A DNA stretch of 27,512 bases from positions 1 through 27,512 of the IMG/VR virus record IMGVR_UViG_3300025168_000518, one strand, 5' to 3'. This DNA is from a virus. The position numbers and the translations under genes are program-made. Shown one piece after another: positions 21,823 through 27,512 of the stretch. Position 1 is the first letter of the stretch, and the number at the start of each line of letters is the position of its first letter. A model generated the notes under the pieces. That model did not search any database, had not been told where the DNA came from, and saw only the letters and a program-made list of their open reading frames with translations.

Positions 21823-21948
21823 CTAAGTTTTAGCTTTACGCCAGGTATTAGACAAGATATCTCGACAAGACCTACACATCCCTTTTTTAATGTCTGAAGG
21901 TAAGCCAAACACGTTAATCTGTTTTACACCACAACTTCGGCATCTCAT
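21823..21948 (-). CDS. Zinc-ribbon microprotein (41 aa)
   Basis: This short frame begins MRCRSCGVKQINVFGLPSDI and continues to GMCRSCRDILSNTWRKAKT. Four cysteines form two CxxC knuckles (C3/C6 and C26/C29) spaced 19 residues apart, the geometry of a zinc ribbon. The C-terminus is basic. Its ATG overlaps the TGA of the ATPase gene (ATGA), and GAGGAGG stands just upstream, so translation coupling and a good ribosome site both support it. It fills most of the gap before the terminase. It may bind nucleic acid or a partner in replication, transcription or packaging; a specific role cannot be read from the sequence. Confidence 0.78.
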   Translation of the reverse strand: MRCRSCGVKQINVFGLPSDIKKGMCRSCRDILSNTWRKAKT

Positions 21949-23039
21949 TCGTCCTCCTCTAACAGAGACTCCTGTACCTGTTCAACTCTAGGAACAGGTC
22001 TAGAAGTTTCACTCTCTATTATATCCCAACCTTCCTTAGTTACACTATATTGTTTAGATCTTCCTTCACCAGTTTGCTCTACAAGCTCTTCTCTGATAAG
22101 CTGAGCCTTTGGACGTTCAAAGCGACCTCCGTCCATATTTGCAGCTTCTCTCCAAGCTTTATTAAAGAACTTCTCTCCTCTGTGTGTTGTAATGTCTCCT
22201 AAAGCTTTTAGTAAGGAGTAATCTCTTGCTTTTACACCTTCTTGGTACGCAGTCAAACCTGCGGAGCCACTCTCTTGGTCAGCAGTCAACATAAGGGACC
22301 ATGGCTTAAATGGTTCAGCATCCTTTTGCTTAGTGCATTCCATTTCAATAAAGCCAGAGTCTTGTCCACGTGCAGTTAAGTGAATCGTTGTATCTGCTGA
22401 TGCTCGTATAACAGAAGATCCTCTCATGCTTTCTCCAGATTTTGTGTCGTGGTGTATCGCTAGTACGGCTGCATTAAAGTTTTGCCTTAGTGTATCTATC
22501 ATAGCCACCACTTGACCCATATCTTGTTGTAGGTTTTCATTAGCACCAACGGTACATCTCTGCAACGTATCAATAACAATAAGTCCTGGGTCCACAGATT
22601 CAACTAGGTCAAGAAAATCCAGTTGCTCAGTTGTAGGAAGTTTTCCTGGTGGAGCAAATAAGGGTACTGCGCTCGTGTAATAGAAGACAGGTGGAAATAT
22701 GGAGGCATTTCTCCTATTCTTCCAAGCGGTTACACGAGCACCTAAGTACCCAACTCCTTCGGCTAGGACATATAAAACTGTGGTCTTTTGTGTCTTCTTA
22801 CCAAACCATGTCCAACCGTTAGCTATGGTGTTAGCCCAGTCTAATGCTAAAAATGTTTTTCCGACACCTGCATCAGAGTGCAACACCGTAAAGCCCTCTT
22901 CCATAATAAAATCCTCAATAAGCCATTCAGGTGGTTTGAGCTTGGTAACGTCTTCGCCTTTGAGGACTTTTAACTGTCGATAGTTATCTGCCTGCCGATG
23001 ATGCTTTAATAAAAGCTTTAGTCTCTCTGGTATAATCAT
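21945..23039 (-). CDS. RecA-fold replication ATPase, RepA/DnaB-type helicase-like (364 aa)
   Basis: A RecA/AAA_25-type core spans about residues 35-260. Walker A is SDAGVGKT (55-62), Walker B is LIVID (153-157), and an AIHHD motif lies at 194-198, as in RepA-like hexameric helicases. Residues about 280-345 (KFFNKAWREAANMDGGRF, then KAQLIREEL and SKQYSVTKEGW) fit a winged-helix domain that could bind DNA. The predicted role is ATP-driven DNA unwinding or helicase loading in phage replication. It starts with GGAGGAAT before the ATG at 23037-23039 and is the first gene of the leftward block, downstream of a dense inverted-repeat cluster that may be its origin or operator. A cytosolic enzyme is expected; no membrane segment is seen. 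Confidence 0.87.
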   Translation of the reverse strand: MIIPERLKLLLKHHRQADNYRQLKVLKGEDVTKLKPPEWLIEDFIMEEGFTVLHSDAGVGKTFLALDWANTIANGWTWFGKKTQKTTVLYVLAEGVGYLGARVTAWKNRRNASIFPPVFYYTSAVPLFAPPGKLPTTEQLDFLDLVESVDPGLIVIDTLQRCTVGANENLQQDMGQVVAMIDTLRQNFNAAVLAIHHDTKSGESMRGSSVIRASADTTIHLTARGQDSGFIEMECTKQKDAEPFKPWSLMLTADQESGSAGLTAYQEGVKARDYSLLKALGDITTHRGEKFFNKAWREAANMDGGRFERPKAQLIREELVEQTGEGRSKQYSVTKEGWDIIESETSRPVPRVEQVQESLLEEDE

Positions 23040-23080: not shown

Positions 23081-23268
23081 TTTAGTCCAACAGATTTGGA
23101 CTAAAAGTTAGTCCAAAGGCATCTGGACTAACTTACACAAATGTTTACCTATGTTTCTTGTTTAGTCCAGGTGCTATAAGGGTTTTTAAGAATGCCAAAG
23201 TTAGTCCACTTATGTCCACTCTTTAGAGTGGACTAAGGGACTAATGGGACTCTGTTTAGGGGACTTAG
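23081..23268. repeat. TTAGTCCA / TGGACTAA inverted-repeat cluster (candidate origin iterons or operators)
   Basis: In under 190 bases an 8-9-mer recurs in both directions. First pair: TTTAGTCCA 23081-23089 and TGGACTAAA 23097-23105. Second pair: arms of 11 bp, 23105-23115 and 23124-23134. A lone TTTAGTCCA stands at 23161-23169. A further TTAGTCCACT (23201-23210) pairs with AGTGGACTAA (23227-23236), and GTCCACTC/GAGTGGAC (23214-23221/23226-23233) makes a tighter hairpin. Degenerate GGGACTAA and GGGACT copies follow to about 23268. The cluster lies 42 bases before the ATPase start. Such arrays are typical of replication initiator or repressor sites. No known initiator box is recognised. Confidence 0.8.
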
Positions 23269-23292: not shown

Positions 23293-23372
23293 TATTAATC
23301 AGTCTATATATAGGTTTTTGAGAGTTTTTAAGGGTTTTCGCAAAATTAATGTGGGGACTTTCCTTAGGTTAG

Positions 23373-23481: not shown

Positions 23482-23510
23482 AGCAAGAAAAGGAAAAAAA
23501 AACATATATA
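23482..23510 (-). repeat. Purine-tract repeat, left copy (AGCAAGAAAAGG plus nine A, then ATATATATA)
   Basis: The 21-base identity AGCAAGAAAAGG-A9 is followed by CATATATATA. The same 21 bases followed by TATATATATA stand in reverse orientation at 25069-25100. Read leftward, this copy is an AT palindrome followed by T9, so it may also be the 3' end of a leftward transcript through the structured RNA. Alternatively it is a promoter-type AT/T-tract element in front of the ATPase operon. Confidence 0.7.
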
Positions 23511-23529
23511 TACGTATCGCCATTTATAA

Positions 23530-23673
23530 TTACTTTGTATGCACAAAGTAAAACAAAAGCAATTACTTTGAAAAGTAATCAAACCAAGTAAGATACAGTC
23601 TCGTAACTGCAGTACGAAACCTTTTATTAAAATAAAAGCTTTACCAAAACAACTTACTAAACAAGAGTTACGA
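23530..23673 (-). other. Cluster of small hairpins flanking the structured RNA
   Basis: Successive perfect stems are TTACTTTGT/ACAAAGTAA (23530-23538/23543-23551), ATTACTT/AAGTAAT (23562-23568/23573-23579) and CTTTTATT/AATAAAAG (23621-23628/23631-23638). AGTAAG/CTTACT (23587-23592/23653-23658) encloses the third. TCGTAACT (23601-23608) can pair with AGTTACGA (23666-23673), crossing the AGTAAG helix, which would be a pseudoknot, or it can fold locally on ACTGCAGT. These lie outside the long closing helix and probably form the 3' flank if the RNA is leftward. Confidence 0.55.
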
Positions 23674-23866
23674 CGCTGGAACCACACACGGTCATCCCAG
23701 AGTGGAAATTTCGCACTATATTGGTAACCCAAGCACTTTCAGATGATAGTCAACTGCGTAGGATGCCATGTATAAGTTCACCAAAACGGTGTTTTCGGAA
23801 CGGCAATCTACGAACGCAAGCGTTCTGTGAATCCAAAATCTTGTCCAAAGAGCACAATCTCTAAGC

Positions 23867-23891
23867 AGAAACGCTCGTAAACTCGCTGGCT
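23867..23891 (-). repeat. 25-nt capped-stem module, copy 1 (CTCG core)
   Basis: AGAAACG, a 12-base core CTCGTAAACTCG, then CTGGCT. The module caps a variable 11-bp stem (ATCTC-t-AAGCAG with CTGCTTGAGAT). The identical 25 bases recur at 24321-24345 on a different stem. Confidence 0.8.
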
Positions 23892-23958
23892 GCTTGAGAT
23901 AGTAGGACAGAATTTTGGTTTGCCTAAACAGAAAGCATGGCATCTTACAAGTCATAGT

Positions 23959-23983
23959 CGAAACGAACGCAAGCGTTCTGGCT
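23959..23983 (-). repeat. 25-nt capped-stem module, copy 2 (palindromic core)
   Basis: This copy has the same ends as the others except for one first-base change (C for A). The core is AACGCAAGCGTT, making the hairpin GAACG-CAAG-CGTTC (23965-23978). Its flanking stem is weak (CAAG/CTTG only). A related hairpin without the conserved ends lies at 23812-23825. Confidence 0.75.
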
Positions 23984-24004
23984 CCTTGACATTGGTTTCA
24001 ATTC

Positions 24005-24029
24005 AGAAACGAACGCAAGCGTTCTGGCT
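24005..24029 (-). repeat. 25-nt capped-stem module, copy 3 (palindromic core)
   Basis: AGAAACG, core AACGCAAGCGTT, CTGGCT. The flanks CAATTCAG (23999-24006) and CTGAATTG (24028-24035) pair perfectly and differ from the stems of the other copies. Confidence 0.8.
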
Positions 24030-24320
24030 GAATTGCAAATCCACTGACTATCATGTGAAAGCACTTGTGCTACCAATTAAAAAACTGTACAAAATCAGCA
24101 CGGAACTACAAAAACAACACAAAACTTTATTTTCCCGGACCCTAGAGTTAAAGCAAGTTTTAGCGCCAAGGCGTTGTCACTAAAACTTAAACTCTATCCG
24201 AAAAAAGAAAGTTTAACGTTGTTTTTCAAGTTACCTGAGCTAATGTTTGTCCCCGCGCGTTTTTGAGCAAGTCTATTAGTCAAGTCACCGAAAATCACTT
24301 TAGGATTCTTTTGGTTTTTT

Positions 24321-24345
24321 AGAAACGCTCGTAAACTCGCTGGCT
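24321..24345 (-). repeat. 25-nt capped-stem module, copy 4 (CTCG core)
   Basis: Identical to copy 1 over 25 bases. It is flanked by TTTTTAG (24316-24322) and CTAAAAA (24344-24350), then TTTTGG/CCAAAA further out. It forms one arm of a three-way junction with the GCAC/GTGC hairpin at 24365-24377. Confidence 0.8.
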
Positions 24346-24512
24346 AAAAACTCCAAAACAATCAGCACAGGCGGTGCAAAGCAATTTTCGCTGACTTGAC
24401 AAACTACTTACAAGATCGACGCAAGCGCCGAGTAAGTAGCGATCCGAAATTTCCAAACTGGGATAGACAGTGTGTTCAAAAATGAATATGCAAATATATA
24501 AAGGATATAATA

Positions 24513-24875
24513 ATGATAGTAATAGGTACATTAATGACATTTGATGCTACAACACTAGGAATAAATGATAAAGGTTGGGGACAATCTTTATACTTTCAAC
24601 CAGATTATGAGGGTGCAGATGAGGCATTTGTTAATGCATTTAAATTATCAGCTAAATTAAATAGAGTTGAAAATCTACAAGATATAGTTGATAGTTTAAC
24701 TAATAAACTAAAAGCTTTTGCACCAGATAATGATTTGTCTAAGCTAACAGGTGCTAATGCATATAGTGGTATTCATGTTGAGATTGACGGTTATTTTAAA
24801 GCTAATAATTGGACTAATGCTAAAACTGGTGAAAAAGTATTTTCTAATAATCTAGTCGTAGATAGTATTAAATAA
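24513..24875 (+). CDS. Unknown early protein, weakly OB-fold/SSB-like (120 aa)
   Basis: The protein begins MIVIGTLMTFDATTLGINDK, with AGGA nine bases before the ATG; a second ATG lies seven codons on (24534). No membrane segment is seen. The last 40 residues (HVEIDGYFKANNWT, then GEKVFSNNLVVDSIK) recall the end of single-stranded DNA-binding OB folds, where a strand, an aromatic-Asn-Trp turn and a final strand follow one another. The resemblance is short and I hold it weakly. It is the first gene of the rightward block, and its stop overlaps the next ATG by one base, so a replication or early regulatory role is reasonable but unproved. Confidence 0.7.
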   Translation: MIVIGTLMTFDATTLGINDKGWGQSLYFQPDYEGADEAFVNAFKLSAKLNRVENLQDIVDSLTNKLKAFAPDNDLSKLTGANAYSGIHVEIDGYFKANNWTNAKTGEKVFSNNLVVDSIK

Positions 24876-24991
24876 TGTGTATACATTGTTCTACTACAAA
24901 TAATATTGTACATAGTGGTACAGATGCATTAATGCTAGGTTGTTTAAATGACCTACATAGAATATGTTATTCATGCGCTAATACAATGTAA
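24875..24991 (+). CDS. Zinc-ribbon-like microprotein (38 aa)
   Basis: The protein reads MCIHCSTTNN...ICYSCANTM, with CxxC at C2/C5 and a second CxxC near the C-terminus (C31/C34), plus one further Cys at about residue 23. This is a compact zinc-ribbon geometry. The ATG shares one base with the TAA of the preceding gene, giving translational coupling. A strong terminator follows within 10 bases. No family is recognised. It is the second four-cysteine microprotein in the window, with the other in the leftward replication operon. Confidence 0.68.
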   Translation: MCIHCSTTNNIVHSGTDALMLGCLNDLHRICYSCANTM

Positions 24992-24998
24992 ATAAGAG

Positions 24999-25050
24999 AT
25001 CGATTGGTGGTTATGTTCCCCTACATGACCACTAATTGATTTTATTTTTT
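24999..25050 (+). terminator. Intrinsic terminator after the 38-aa gene
   Basis: ATCGATTGGTGGT (24999-25011) pairs with ACCACTAATTGAT (25028-25040) through 13 bp, including two G-U pairs that exist only on the plus strand. A U-rich tract (TTTATTTTTT) follows at 25041-25050. Orientation, position 8 bases after the stop and the plus-only wobble pairs all indicate a rightward terminator that ends the 24513-24991 transcript. Confidence 0.85.
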
Positions 25051-25068
25051 TAAGCCCTTGACGACAAC

Positions 25069-25100
25069 ATATATATATATTTTTTTTTCCTTTTCTTGCT
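25069..25100 (+). repeat. Purine-tract repeat, right copy (inverted relative to 23482-23510)
   Basis: Read rightward this is ATATATATAT, T9, CCTTTTCTTGCT. The 21 bases T9-CCTTTTCTTGCT are the exact reverse complement of the left copy. It lies between the terminator and the next operon, so here it is better placed to be promoter-associated than to be a terminator. Confidence 0.75.
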
Positions 25101-25778: not shown

Positions 25779-25959
25779 TGAATATGTTAAATTAGCAAAA
25801 GACATAGTTAAATATAGCCAAAATATAGAGGAATTAGCTACTAATAGCTTAATTGCGTTATATAAAATAAGTCCTAATCACTACGTAGGTGACCAAGACT
25901 TTGTTAAAGGTTATAAAAAACTACATGACATTATAGAAAAAGTAGAGGATAAAACATGA
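25768..25959 (+). CDS. Unknown small helical protein (63 aa, GTG start)
   Basis: GTG at 25768-25770 has GGAGG six bases before it. The product, MTNNEYVKLAKDIVKYSQNI...EKVEDKT, is a small helical bundle-like protein. A central segment contains SLIALYKISPNHYVGDQDF. The stop overlaps the amidoligase ATG (ATGA), so it is likely to be translated together with that enzyme and could be its partner. No family is recognised. Confidence 0.65.
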   Translation: MTNNEYVKLAKDIVKYSQNIEELATNSLIALYKISPNHYVGDQDFVKGYKKLHDIIEKVEDKT

Positions 25960-27356
25960 AAGGTAATAGAAAACGAACTGTTGATAGTACAGGTATGCAT
26001 AGCATAAATTTAGCATATGTAGATAGCTACTTCAGAAAAAGAATACCTGGATTTATGAATGTAAATACATTGTCGGCAATAAATCTAGAACGTTTAATAG
26101 ATACTATGAGAGATGCGTATGCAAAAAGTAGTGTTCCTAATAAAGTGCAACAAAGATCATATCAAGGTGATATAAGAAATGCTGCAATATCAGGACATCA
26201 CTACCCTATAAATACGCAAACAATAAAACCATTCCCTTATACCCATAAACCATTTGGTTATAATGTATTGGATTTTAATCCAGATACTGGAGAATTCATA
26301 GTGTATAACAAACAAGAATGGAATGAAAATAACTACTATAAATCTGTAACAAAAGGTAAAAGTAGTTTACCAAGCTTAATGCAATATGTACCAATGGGTA
26401 TGGAAATAGAGATTATTTATCGTAATAATTCTTCTAATTACATGCAATGTGAGGATTGTAGAGAATACGATGAGGATCATGACATAGAACTAGAAACATT
26501 TTGTGAAAATGCAGATTGTAATAGTGATAATACTGGTAATGATCTTTCTAACTTAGCATCAAATCCAAGAATAAAAGCATACAAATTCTTAGCAGAATTA
26601 AATATTGCTTTTGGTTCAGTGACTAAAAACTCAGAGCCAGTATGGATAGTTAAAAATGACGCTACAGTTGACTTAGAATATGTATCTATGCCTATGACAT
26701 TACGAGCTTGGCGTGCTGGACTAGAATTAACAGATTATCTATTTCAGTCATTTAAAGTTGCATCGGAATGGAGTAAAGCATTTTACGGACCATGTGGAGG
26801 ACATATACATTTAGATAAAGACGTGTTTAATAATACCTATCAGTATTATGCATTTCTATCTATGCATTATGATAATCCTAAATTTATTGCAGCTATTGCA
26901 CAAAGACCAATAGATAGTAATAGTCAATGGTGTTACTTGCAAAAACCTAACGAATTTGCTAGATATGCCAAACATAAATTACGATCACCTAACAGAGGTG
27001 CAGTAAATGTATCAAGTAATACAATAGAATTGCGTTATTTTAGATCTAATCTAAAAGTAGATAGATTACTTAAAAATCTAGAATTTGCGCAATCGTTGTT
27101 TCATTATACATCACAACTAACATATCAAGATATAGCTAGAGATAAAGCGCATAATCTAAAATATTACTTGTTGTGGGTAAAAGCATATAGAAATACGTAT
27201 AGAAACTTGTTCGCATATTTAGTTGAACGTAAATGGATCAAATATACGGAACGTAGAAATCTAGGTTGGCAACTGGTATATGGTGATGATAATCAAATGC
27301 AACCAGATCATATGGAAATAAATAACATAGAACAATATAATGGAGGTAACTGGTAA
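25956..27356 (+). CDS. Amidoligase-family enzyme (466 aa)
   Basis: This matches the glutamine-synthetase-like amidoligase group (Pfam Amidoligase_2 type). MGMEIEI (147-153) carries the metal-binding E150 and E152. NDATVDLEYVSMPM (234-247) corresponds to the DxS..EiVS strand. PCGGHIHLDKD (279-289) gives the conserved H283 and H285, and NTIELRYFRS (355-364) the EfR strand. Such enzymes use ATP to join an amine to a carboxylate, forming amide or isopeptide bonds. Four cysteines (C165, C168, C183, C188) make an inserted zinc-knuckle-like loop after the first motif. The N-terminal 140 residues are unassigned. It overlaps its upstream neighbour by 4 nt and the downstream amidotransferase by 1 nt. 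Substrate is unknown. Confidence 0.9.
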   Translation: MKGNRKRTVDSTGMHSINLAYVDSYFRKRIPGFMNVNTLSAINLERLIDTMRDAYAKSSVPNKVQQRSYQGDIRNAAISGHHYPINTQTIKPFPYTHKPFGYNVLDFNPDTGEFIVYNKQEWNENNYYKSVTKGKSSLPSLMQYVPMGMEIEIIYRNNSSNYMQCEDCREYDEDHDIELETFCENADCNSDNTGNDLSNLASNPRIKAYKFLAELNIAFGSVTKNSEPVWIVKNDATVDLEYVSMPMTLRAWRAGLELTDYLFQSFKVASEWSKAFYGPCGGHIHLDKDVFNNTYQYYAFLSMHYDNPKFIAAIAQRPIDSNSQWCYLQKPNEFARYAKHKLRSPNRGAVNVSSNTIELRYFRSNLKVDRLLKNLEFAQSLFHYTSQLTYQDIARDKAHNLKYYLLWVKAYRNTYRNLFAYLVERKWIKYTERRNLGWQLVYGDDNQMQPDHMEINNIEQYNGGNW

Positions 27357-27512
27357 TGTGTATTATCGCAAATGTTCCTAAAGGGGTTGGTACAATTAAT
27401 CAATCAACTTTAGAAAATATGACAAATAATAATGGACATGGTTTTGGAGTTTCATACATAGAAAATGATGAAATAAAAGTATTCAAAACTATGGATAGTA
27501 AAAAGTTCGTAA
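27356..27512 (+). CDS. Class II glutamine amidotransferase (Ntn hydrolase), N-terminal part
   Basis: Only 52 residues are visible before the right edge. The sequence begins MCIIANVPKG, so Cys2 would be the N-terminal nucleophile after Met removal. NNNGHGFGVSYIEND (24-38) matches the N-x-x-GxG strand of class II amidotransferases. These hydrolyse glutamine and supply ammonia, or act on a gamma-glutamyl bond. Its ATG shares one base with the amidoligase stop and has GGAGG upstream, so the two proteins are likely to work on one product. The remaining residues and any fused domain lie outside the window. Confidence 0.82.
   Translation, partial: MCIIANVPKGVGTINQSTLENMTNNNGHGFGVSYIENDEIKVFKTMDSKKFV

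Follow-up and report, generated by a model that had tools for sequence, protein, structure and literature searches.

We analysed a linear marine phage window of 27.5 kb, which is the whole stretch of DNA taken from record IMGVR_UViG_3300025168_000518 and whose genes are arranged in two divergent blocks. Genes across positions 1–23039, a portal and a terminase among them, are oriented leftward, those from 24513 onward are oriented rightward, and the putative RNA element described here sits in the 1.47-kb gap between the two blocks. The terminase has phage terminases as its nearest matches (27–29% identity, mainly from Streptomyces and Mycobacterium phages). On the right, an amidoligase-like gene (25956–27353) gave only a weak Pfam match below the cut-off, and directly after it the start of a class II glutamine amidotransferase gene can be recognized by eye (27358–27512). 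No tRNA was predicted by ARAGORN anywhere in the 27.5 kb, a window that may not cover the complete genome. The metagenome-assembled genomes that contain relatives of the phage (L074, L075 and L076) carry the labels Flavobacteriaceae, Pelagibacter and Gammaproteobacteria; these binning labels conflict and thus point to no single host.

The left side of the gap is bordered by a replicative helicase gene (AAA_25, DnaB- or RepA-like; 21945–23039, minus strand). Upstream of it lie eight TTAGTCC/GGACTAA sites at 23082–23244, a possible origin or operator that is kept as palindromes in relatives, followed by a strongly conserved box common to relatives, GGGTTTTCGCAAAATTAATGTGGGGACTTTC (23332–23362); neither was assigned to a strand. 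The conserved leader was also considered as a part of the RNA and rejected, its alignment consisting of the palindromic TTAGTCC sites with about equal support on both strands. On the right, a small plus-strand gene (24513–24875) encodes a protein of 120 amino acids, with 29% identity between the window and L030/L031 and greater distance to the proteins of L024, L027 and L029. Its AlphaFold model is weak (pLDDT 60), and the top Foldseek matches of this model are nearly all single-strand-DNA-binding (SSB) proteins (best E 1e-3), making an SSB the probable identity by predicted fold; Pfam and PDB sequence searches returned no match for this gene, leaving the call without profile support. An intrinsic-terminator-like hairpin with a T-run lies 3' of it on the plus strand (24996–25043). 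Together, the helicase, the iterated TTAGTCC sites and the SSB-like gene point to a replication module.

Architecture and stability of the folded core

A preliminary description, made from the letters alone, had proposed a large closed structure in the gap, with paired ends and three multibranched domains. The ends do pair exactly where it placed them, 24458–24475 with 23684–23700 through 16 pairs, and 13 further pairs lie inside this end helix (24442–24455 with 23703–23716). On the minus strand this gives a core of ~790 nt (23684–24475), with its 5' end near 24475 and its 3' end near 23684, which is supported by stability and by pairs kept in relatives and is closed by a stem, P1, with a 5' arm of 16 + 13 bp at 24442–24475 and a 3' arm at 23684–23716. 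Within P1 the helix list gives, in order, a hairpin capped by a G(CUUG)C tetraloop (24403–24440); Domain I (24279–24400), with a 22-bp helix, inner helices and one repeated cap; Domain II (24089–24250), a long stacked helix of 11+6+10+18+6+15 bp; and Domain III (23720–24077), a 30-bp helix around a multibranch domain. All three domains of the earlier proposal are thus present, but the limits given for the middle one did not hold, its outer helix really spanning 24089–24250. A cap module is repeated on the minus strand, as AGCCAG-CGAGUUUACGAG-CGUUUC with tandem GA at 24322–24345 and 23868–23891, and as AGCCAG-AACGCUUGCGUU-CGUUUC at 24006–24029 and 23960–23983, the copy at 24006–24029 giving a CUUG tetraloop when it is folded locally into a hairpin.

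That the helices exceed chance was borne out by folding: 23684–24475 is far more stable than its dinucleotide shuffles (z about -12 to -19). Its minimum free energy is -269 kcal/mol on the plus strand and -315 kcal/mol on the minus strand, with z of -15.6 (plus) and -11.6 (minus) against 20 shuffles and -15.9 (plus) and -18.9 (minus) against 12. When the entire window was scanned in pieces of 200 nt, the median z was near -0.3, most of the window being background. The region holds only short ORFs, in line with the earlier view that it contains no convincing gene, and a check for a reading frame conserved over the region found none, as relatives carry unrelated sequence at the locus.

Covariation and strand assignment

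A pattern search with the cap module recovered five contigs 97% identical to the window. The one-hit loci from the same pattern (L005–L008, L011, L013, L014, L016 and L017) were dismissed as chance, the pattern lying there within or next to ordinary ORFs on unrelated contigs. The window group therefore comprises six near-identical sequences only, limiting covariation to 3–4 doubly changed pairs. Within this limit, the check for covariation above background came out positive, with compensatory changes in relatives supporting the pairs: four pairs of the close set are altered on both sides with pairing retained, namely 23740/24057 and 23813/23824 in Domain III, 24367/24375 in Domain I, and one via G.U. 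Domain II carries one-sided changes that remain paired on the minus strand only. Sliding the pairing partners by 1–3 columns lowered the paired cells from 99.8% to 37–44%, a control that favours a structure derived from the same sequences, and 33 of 500 shuffles reached the observed number of doubly changed pairs, which lends that count weak support.

A stronger test folded the window sequence alone and then scored the effect of the substitutions found in its 97%-identical relatives. The minus fold showed 2–3 double compensations, 6–9 consistent single changes and 1–2 broken pairs, compared with 0.1, 4–5 and 10–14, respectively, when the same substitutions were placed at random, whereas the plus fold behaved about as random (8–12 broken pairs versus 10–14). 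Mismatches inside helices agree with this strand. Using folds made without G.U pairs at eight loci, A.C mismatches on the plus strand, equivalent to G.U on the minus strand, outnumbered G.T by 49:7, compared with 172:74 in shuffled sequences (p = 0.002). Tandem GA occupied 27 of the 81 two-by-two internal loops in minus folds of eleven loci, as opposed to 6 of 292 in shuffled sequences and none in plus folds; the energy model rewards tandem GA, in shuffles too, and related loci were counted separately, leaving the loops not all independent. The G(CUUG)C tetraloops of the core also fit the minus strand, and some caps, whether tandem GA or G(CUUG)C, are meaningful on that strand alone. In more distant groups the substitution test supports the folds of both strands, and so strand assignment there rests on the G.U and tandem-GA tests. 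Excess stability, covariation and the two strand signatures support a large, closed, ornate phage RNA as first proposed, and we hold an RNA identity, the minus strand and the core itself with high confidence, in the absence of transcript data. To the preliminary description we add the strand, an outer helix and the finding that the element is replaced across the phage family.

An outer helix and replacement of the locus among relatives

The strongest inverted repeat of the region lies outside the limits first drawn and joins 23482–23522 to 25059–25100 over 40–41 bp. Read on the minus strand, this outer helix, P0, has its 5' arm at 25059–25100 and its 3' arm at 23482–23522 and counts 41 bp, 4 of them G.U, compared with 37 pairs on the plus strand. 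It encloses the core together with the antisense of the small gene, producing a unit of ~1.62 kb, in which the minus-strand stretch antisense to the small gene is not itself structured in the 200-nt folding scan. Three length and sequence variants of P0 occur among the 97% relatives (A9/T9, A8/T8 and GAG/CTC), and in every case where both arms are present, the partner arm at a distance of 1.6 kb carries the matching variant. In other groups the arms differ in sequence with pairing retained, the strand signal of P0 outside the window group is mixed, and no outer helix is present in the L069/L057/L055 group. We consider P0 probably a part of the RNA and go no further than this, because the likeness of the two arms could also be maintained by gene conversion or by a protein that binds both; the arms could instead be matched DNA sites.

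Searches with the helicase and the conserved leader box expanded the family to about 30 related viral contigs, and every examined contig that extends across the locus carries a folded element on the minus strand at that place. A wider probe based on the helicase alignment retrieved the same family again, which looks saturated in this collection. Even phages with flanks of 93–97% identity differ in the element, its sequence and its layout both being replaced. L064, on the same contig as L024, matches the window at 93% up to 23490 and resumes at 24994 (89%), with 23491–24993 unrelated, and L019 follows the window at 97.5% identity up to 23501. The right boundary of the exchanged cassette falls at the terminator-like hairpin behind the small gene, and the sequence comparison indicates that RNA and small gene are exchanged as one block between relatives. 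The replacement elements also keep their pairs: the L019 and L024 RNAs are 86–88% identical with 9–12 double compensations versus ~1.3–1.4 at random, and the L041/L039/L043 groups show 12–18 versus 3.4–4.5 (16–18 versus 3.4 for L041/L043). Stability beyond that of shuffled sequence was likewise seen, less extremely, for the elements of L029, L031 and L041 (z -5 to -8 on the minus strand). Three RNA types have only short terminal pieces in common (TTGTAGTATGGTTA), a similarity that would be compatible with common descent at the element ends; no common covariance model was built, since the shared sequence is limited to these pieces.

About 12 of the 26 leader-box contigs end within 900 nt beyond the box, which is what a locus too variable for assembly would produce. 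L022, L023, L032, L033, L034, L040, L042 and L044, from different samples, end 39–260 nt past the same box, inside the variable locus. The 55.7-kb contig 3300029448_000050 carries two helicase/leader loci of different types (L027/L054 and L043/L055), being either a chimera or two joined genomes. In L076 and L069, rightward coding genes 900–4500 bases right of the leader box are packed with hairpins without tandem GA; for L076 the summed folding energy of these genes is -1031 versus -575 in shuffled sequence, with the leftward genes near background.

A giant phage RNA and its possible role

The preliminary description had left open whether the element is GOLLD, ROOL or a new class. As far as Rfam allows an answer, it is none of the known families: neither the window nor any of seven relatives contains a match at the gathering score, and GOLLD, ROOL, OLE and HEARO are absent even from a permissive list (E<=10) for the region. 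The permissive hits, miRNA models on the long hairpin 24105–24231 and chance matches, were rejected. Blastn against 50,697 phage records gave no match, and no earlier description was found in the open-access subset of the literature. By Rfam and this literature, the element is a giant ornate phage RNA of a new kind, which differs in location, turnover and outer helix. It resembles GOLLD in being phage or prophage encoded, in its 800-nt class, its ornateness and its unknown function, but differs in that Rfam gives no match, the window contains no tRNA (GOLLD often lies near tRNA genes in phages), its position is between an SSB-like gene and a helicase, and no conserved 3' domain was found among relatives. 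Like ROOL, it is large, ornate, phage associated and non-coding; it differs from ROOL in lacking an Rfam match, in its genomic setting and in the exchange of the entire fold between close relatives. OLE and HEARO are also large structured non-coding RNAs, theirs bacterial, but neither matches in Rfam and no OLE-type membrane-protein or HNH-endonuclease gene was identified adjacent, although these were not searched for specifically. P0 recalls the processing stalk of rRNA precursors, where a long helix with arms more than 1 kb apart encloses a large RNA, but the phage locus has no rRNA and cutting by RNase III has not been shown.

Overall, the best explanation is a minus-strand RNA held in P0 that would act in the replication module as a control RNA encoded in cis, to which we assign a probability of roughly 0.6. 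The function within this explanation, control of replication or of the SSB-like gene, most likely by a cis-encoded antisense-type RNA, remains a tentative inference made without transcript data. It is drawn from three points: the outer helix requires a transcript through the small gene in antisense, the RNA and the small gene travel together, and fast turnover is typical of replicon-control RNAs. In the mechanism we propose, a minus transcript would start right of 25100, and a ~1.6-kb precursor would pass antisense through 24513–24875, heading for the iterated sites and then the helicase gene; no minus-strand promoter or terminator for the RNA is proven. The P0 helix would hold the RNA, perhaps with excision there by an RNase III-like enzyme, and the ornate core may provide stability and recognition. 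By being antisense to the SSB-like gene, the RNA could set the timing or strength of its expression and hence DNA replication. The proposed likeness to replicon-control antisense RNAs lies in an antisense position relative to a replication gene, in the nearby iterated sites and in fast divergence. These RNAs (ColE1 RNA I/II, R1 CopA, phage P1 c4) are roughly 70–550 nt long, and none known to us has an ornate core of 800 nt or is closed by a helix of 41 bp. Fast turnover would suit an RNA marking self versus related phages, as in replicon-control antisense RNAs, and we regard as conceivable, if speculative, a new giant RNA class exchanged in a cassette with the SSB-like gene, its minus fold kept while sequence and layout are replaced, that acts as an identity tag controlling replication and excluding related phages.

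Nearly as likely as antisense replication control is a free-standing, abundant RNA-only assembly formed during infection, without an antisense or replication role. GOLLD and ROOL, phage and prophage RNAs of unknown function and of similar size and ornateness, form homo-oligomeric cages (PMC12286853), and the repeated caps, with their tandem GA and their CUUG loops, might serve for docking, yet the absence of an Rfam match and of a tRNA in the window counts against such an assembly, and rapid whole-fold replacement among close relatives is unlike a conserved cage. It is rather doubtful that the element is a very long structured 5' leader of the helicase–terminase operon acting in cis, for example through antitermination or translation delay: the helicase gene is on the same strand and no terminator-like site was found on the minus strand between 23684 and the helicase start, but the core is self-closed and ends ~640 nt from the start codon, the conserved intervening leader has no RNA strand signal of its own, and the exchanged cassette stops before that leader.

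The remaining explanations have to contend with the strand evidence. A plus-strand 5' untranslated leader of the SSB-like gene, autoregulatory in the manner of T4 gene 32, would account for the position directly upstream of the small gene and for the outer inverted repeat covering the Shine-Dalgarno sequence in L024, L027 and L029. We judge it improbable: substitutions in the window group give the plus fold no support, the G.U and tandem-GA signals are on the minus strand, and the A of GGAGG faces a C in L024 and L027, which makes a C.A mismatch on plus and G.U on minus. Inverted-repeat-rich DNA without RNA function, for instance an origin of replication or palindromes propagated through template switching, would fit the adjoining iterated sites and helicase gene and the hairpin-dense coding genes to the right in L076 and L069, but palindromes offer no reason for a one-strand preference in G.U or tandem GA, and those same coding genes show zero tandem GA. 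As a DNA-only structure has no reason for strand asymmetry, we read the structure as RNA and give the DNA-only explanation very little credence.

Very few families of giant ornate phage RNAs are known (GOLLD and ROOL), neither with a known function. The minus-strand element described here offers a replication context and a natural series of unrelated folds at one site in close relatives, and the persistence of recurrent motifs (tandem GA and CUUG caps) while sequence goes provides comparative material on the role of giant phage RNAs. It also suggests that such RNAs can escape family models by turning over too fast.
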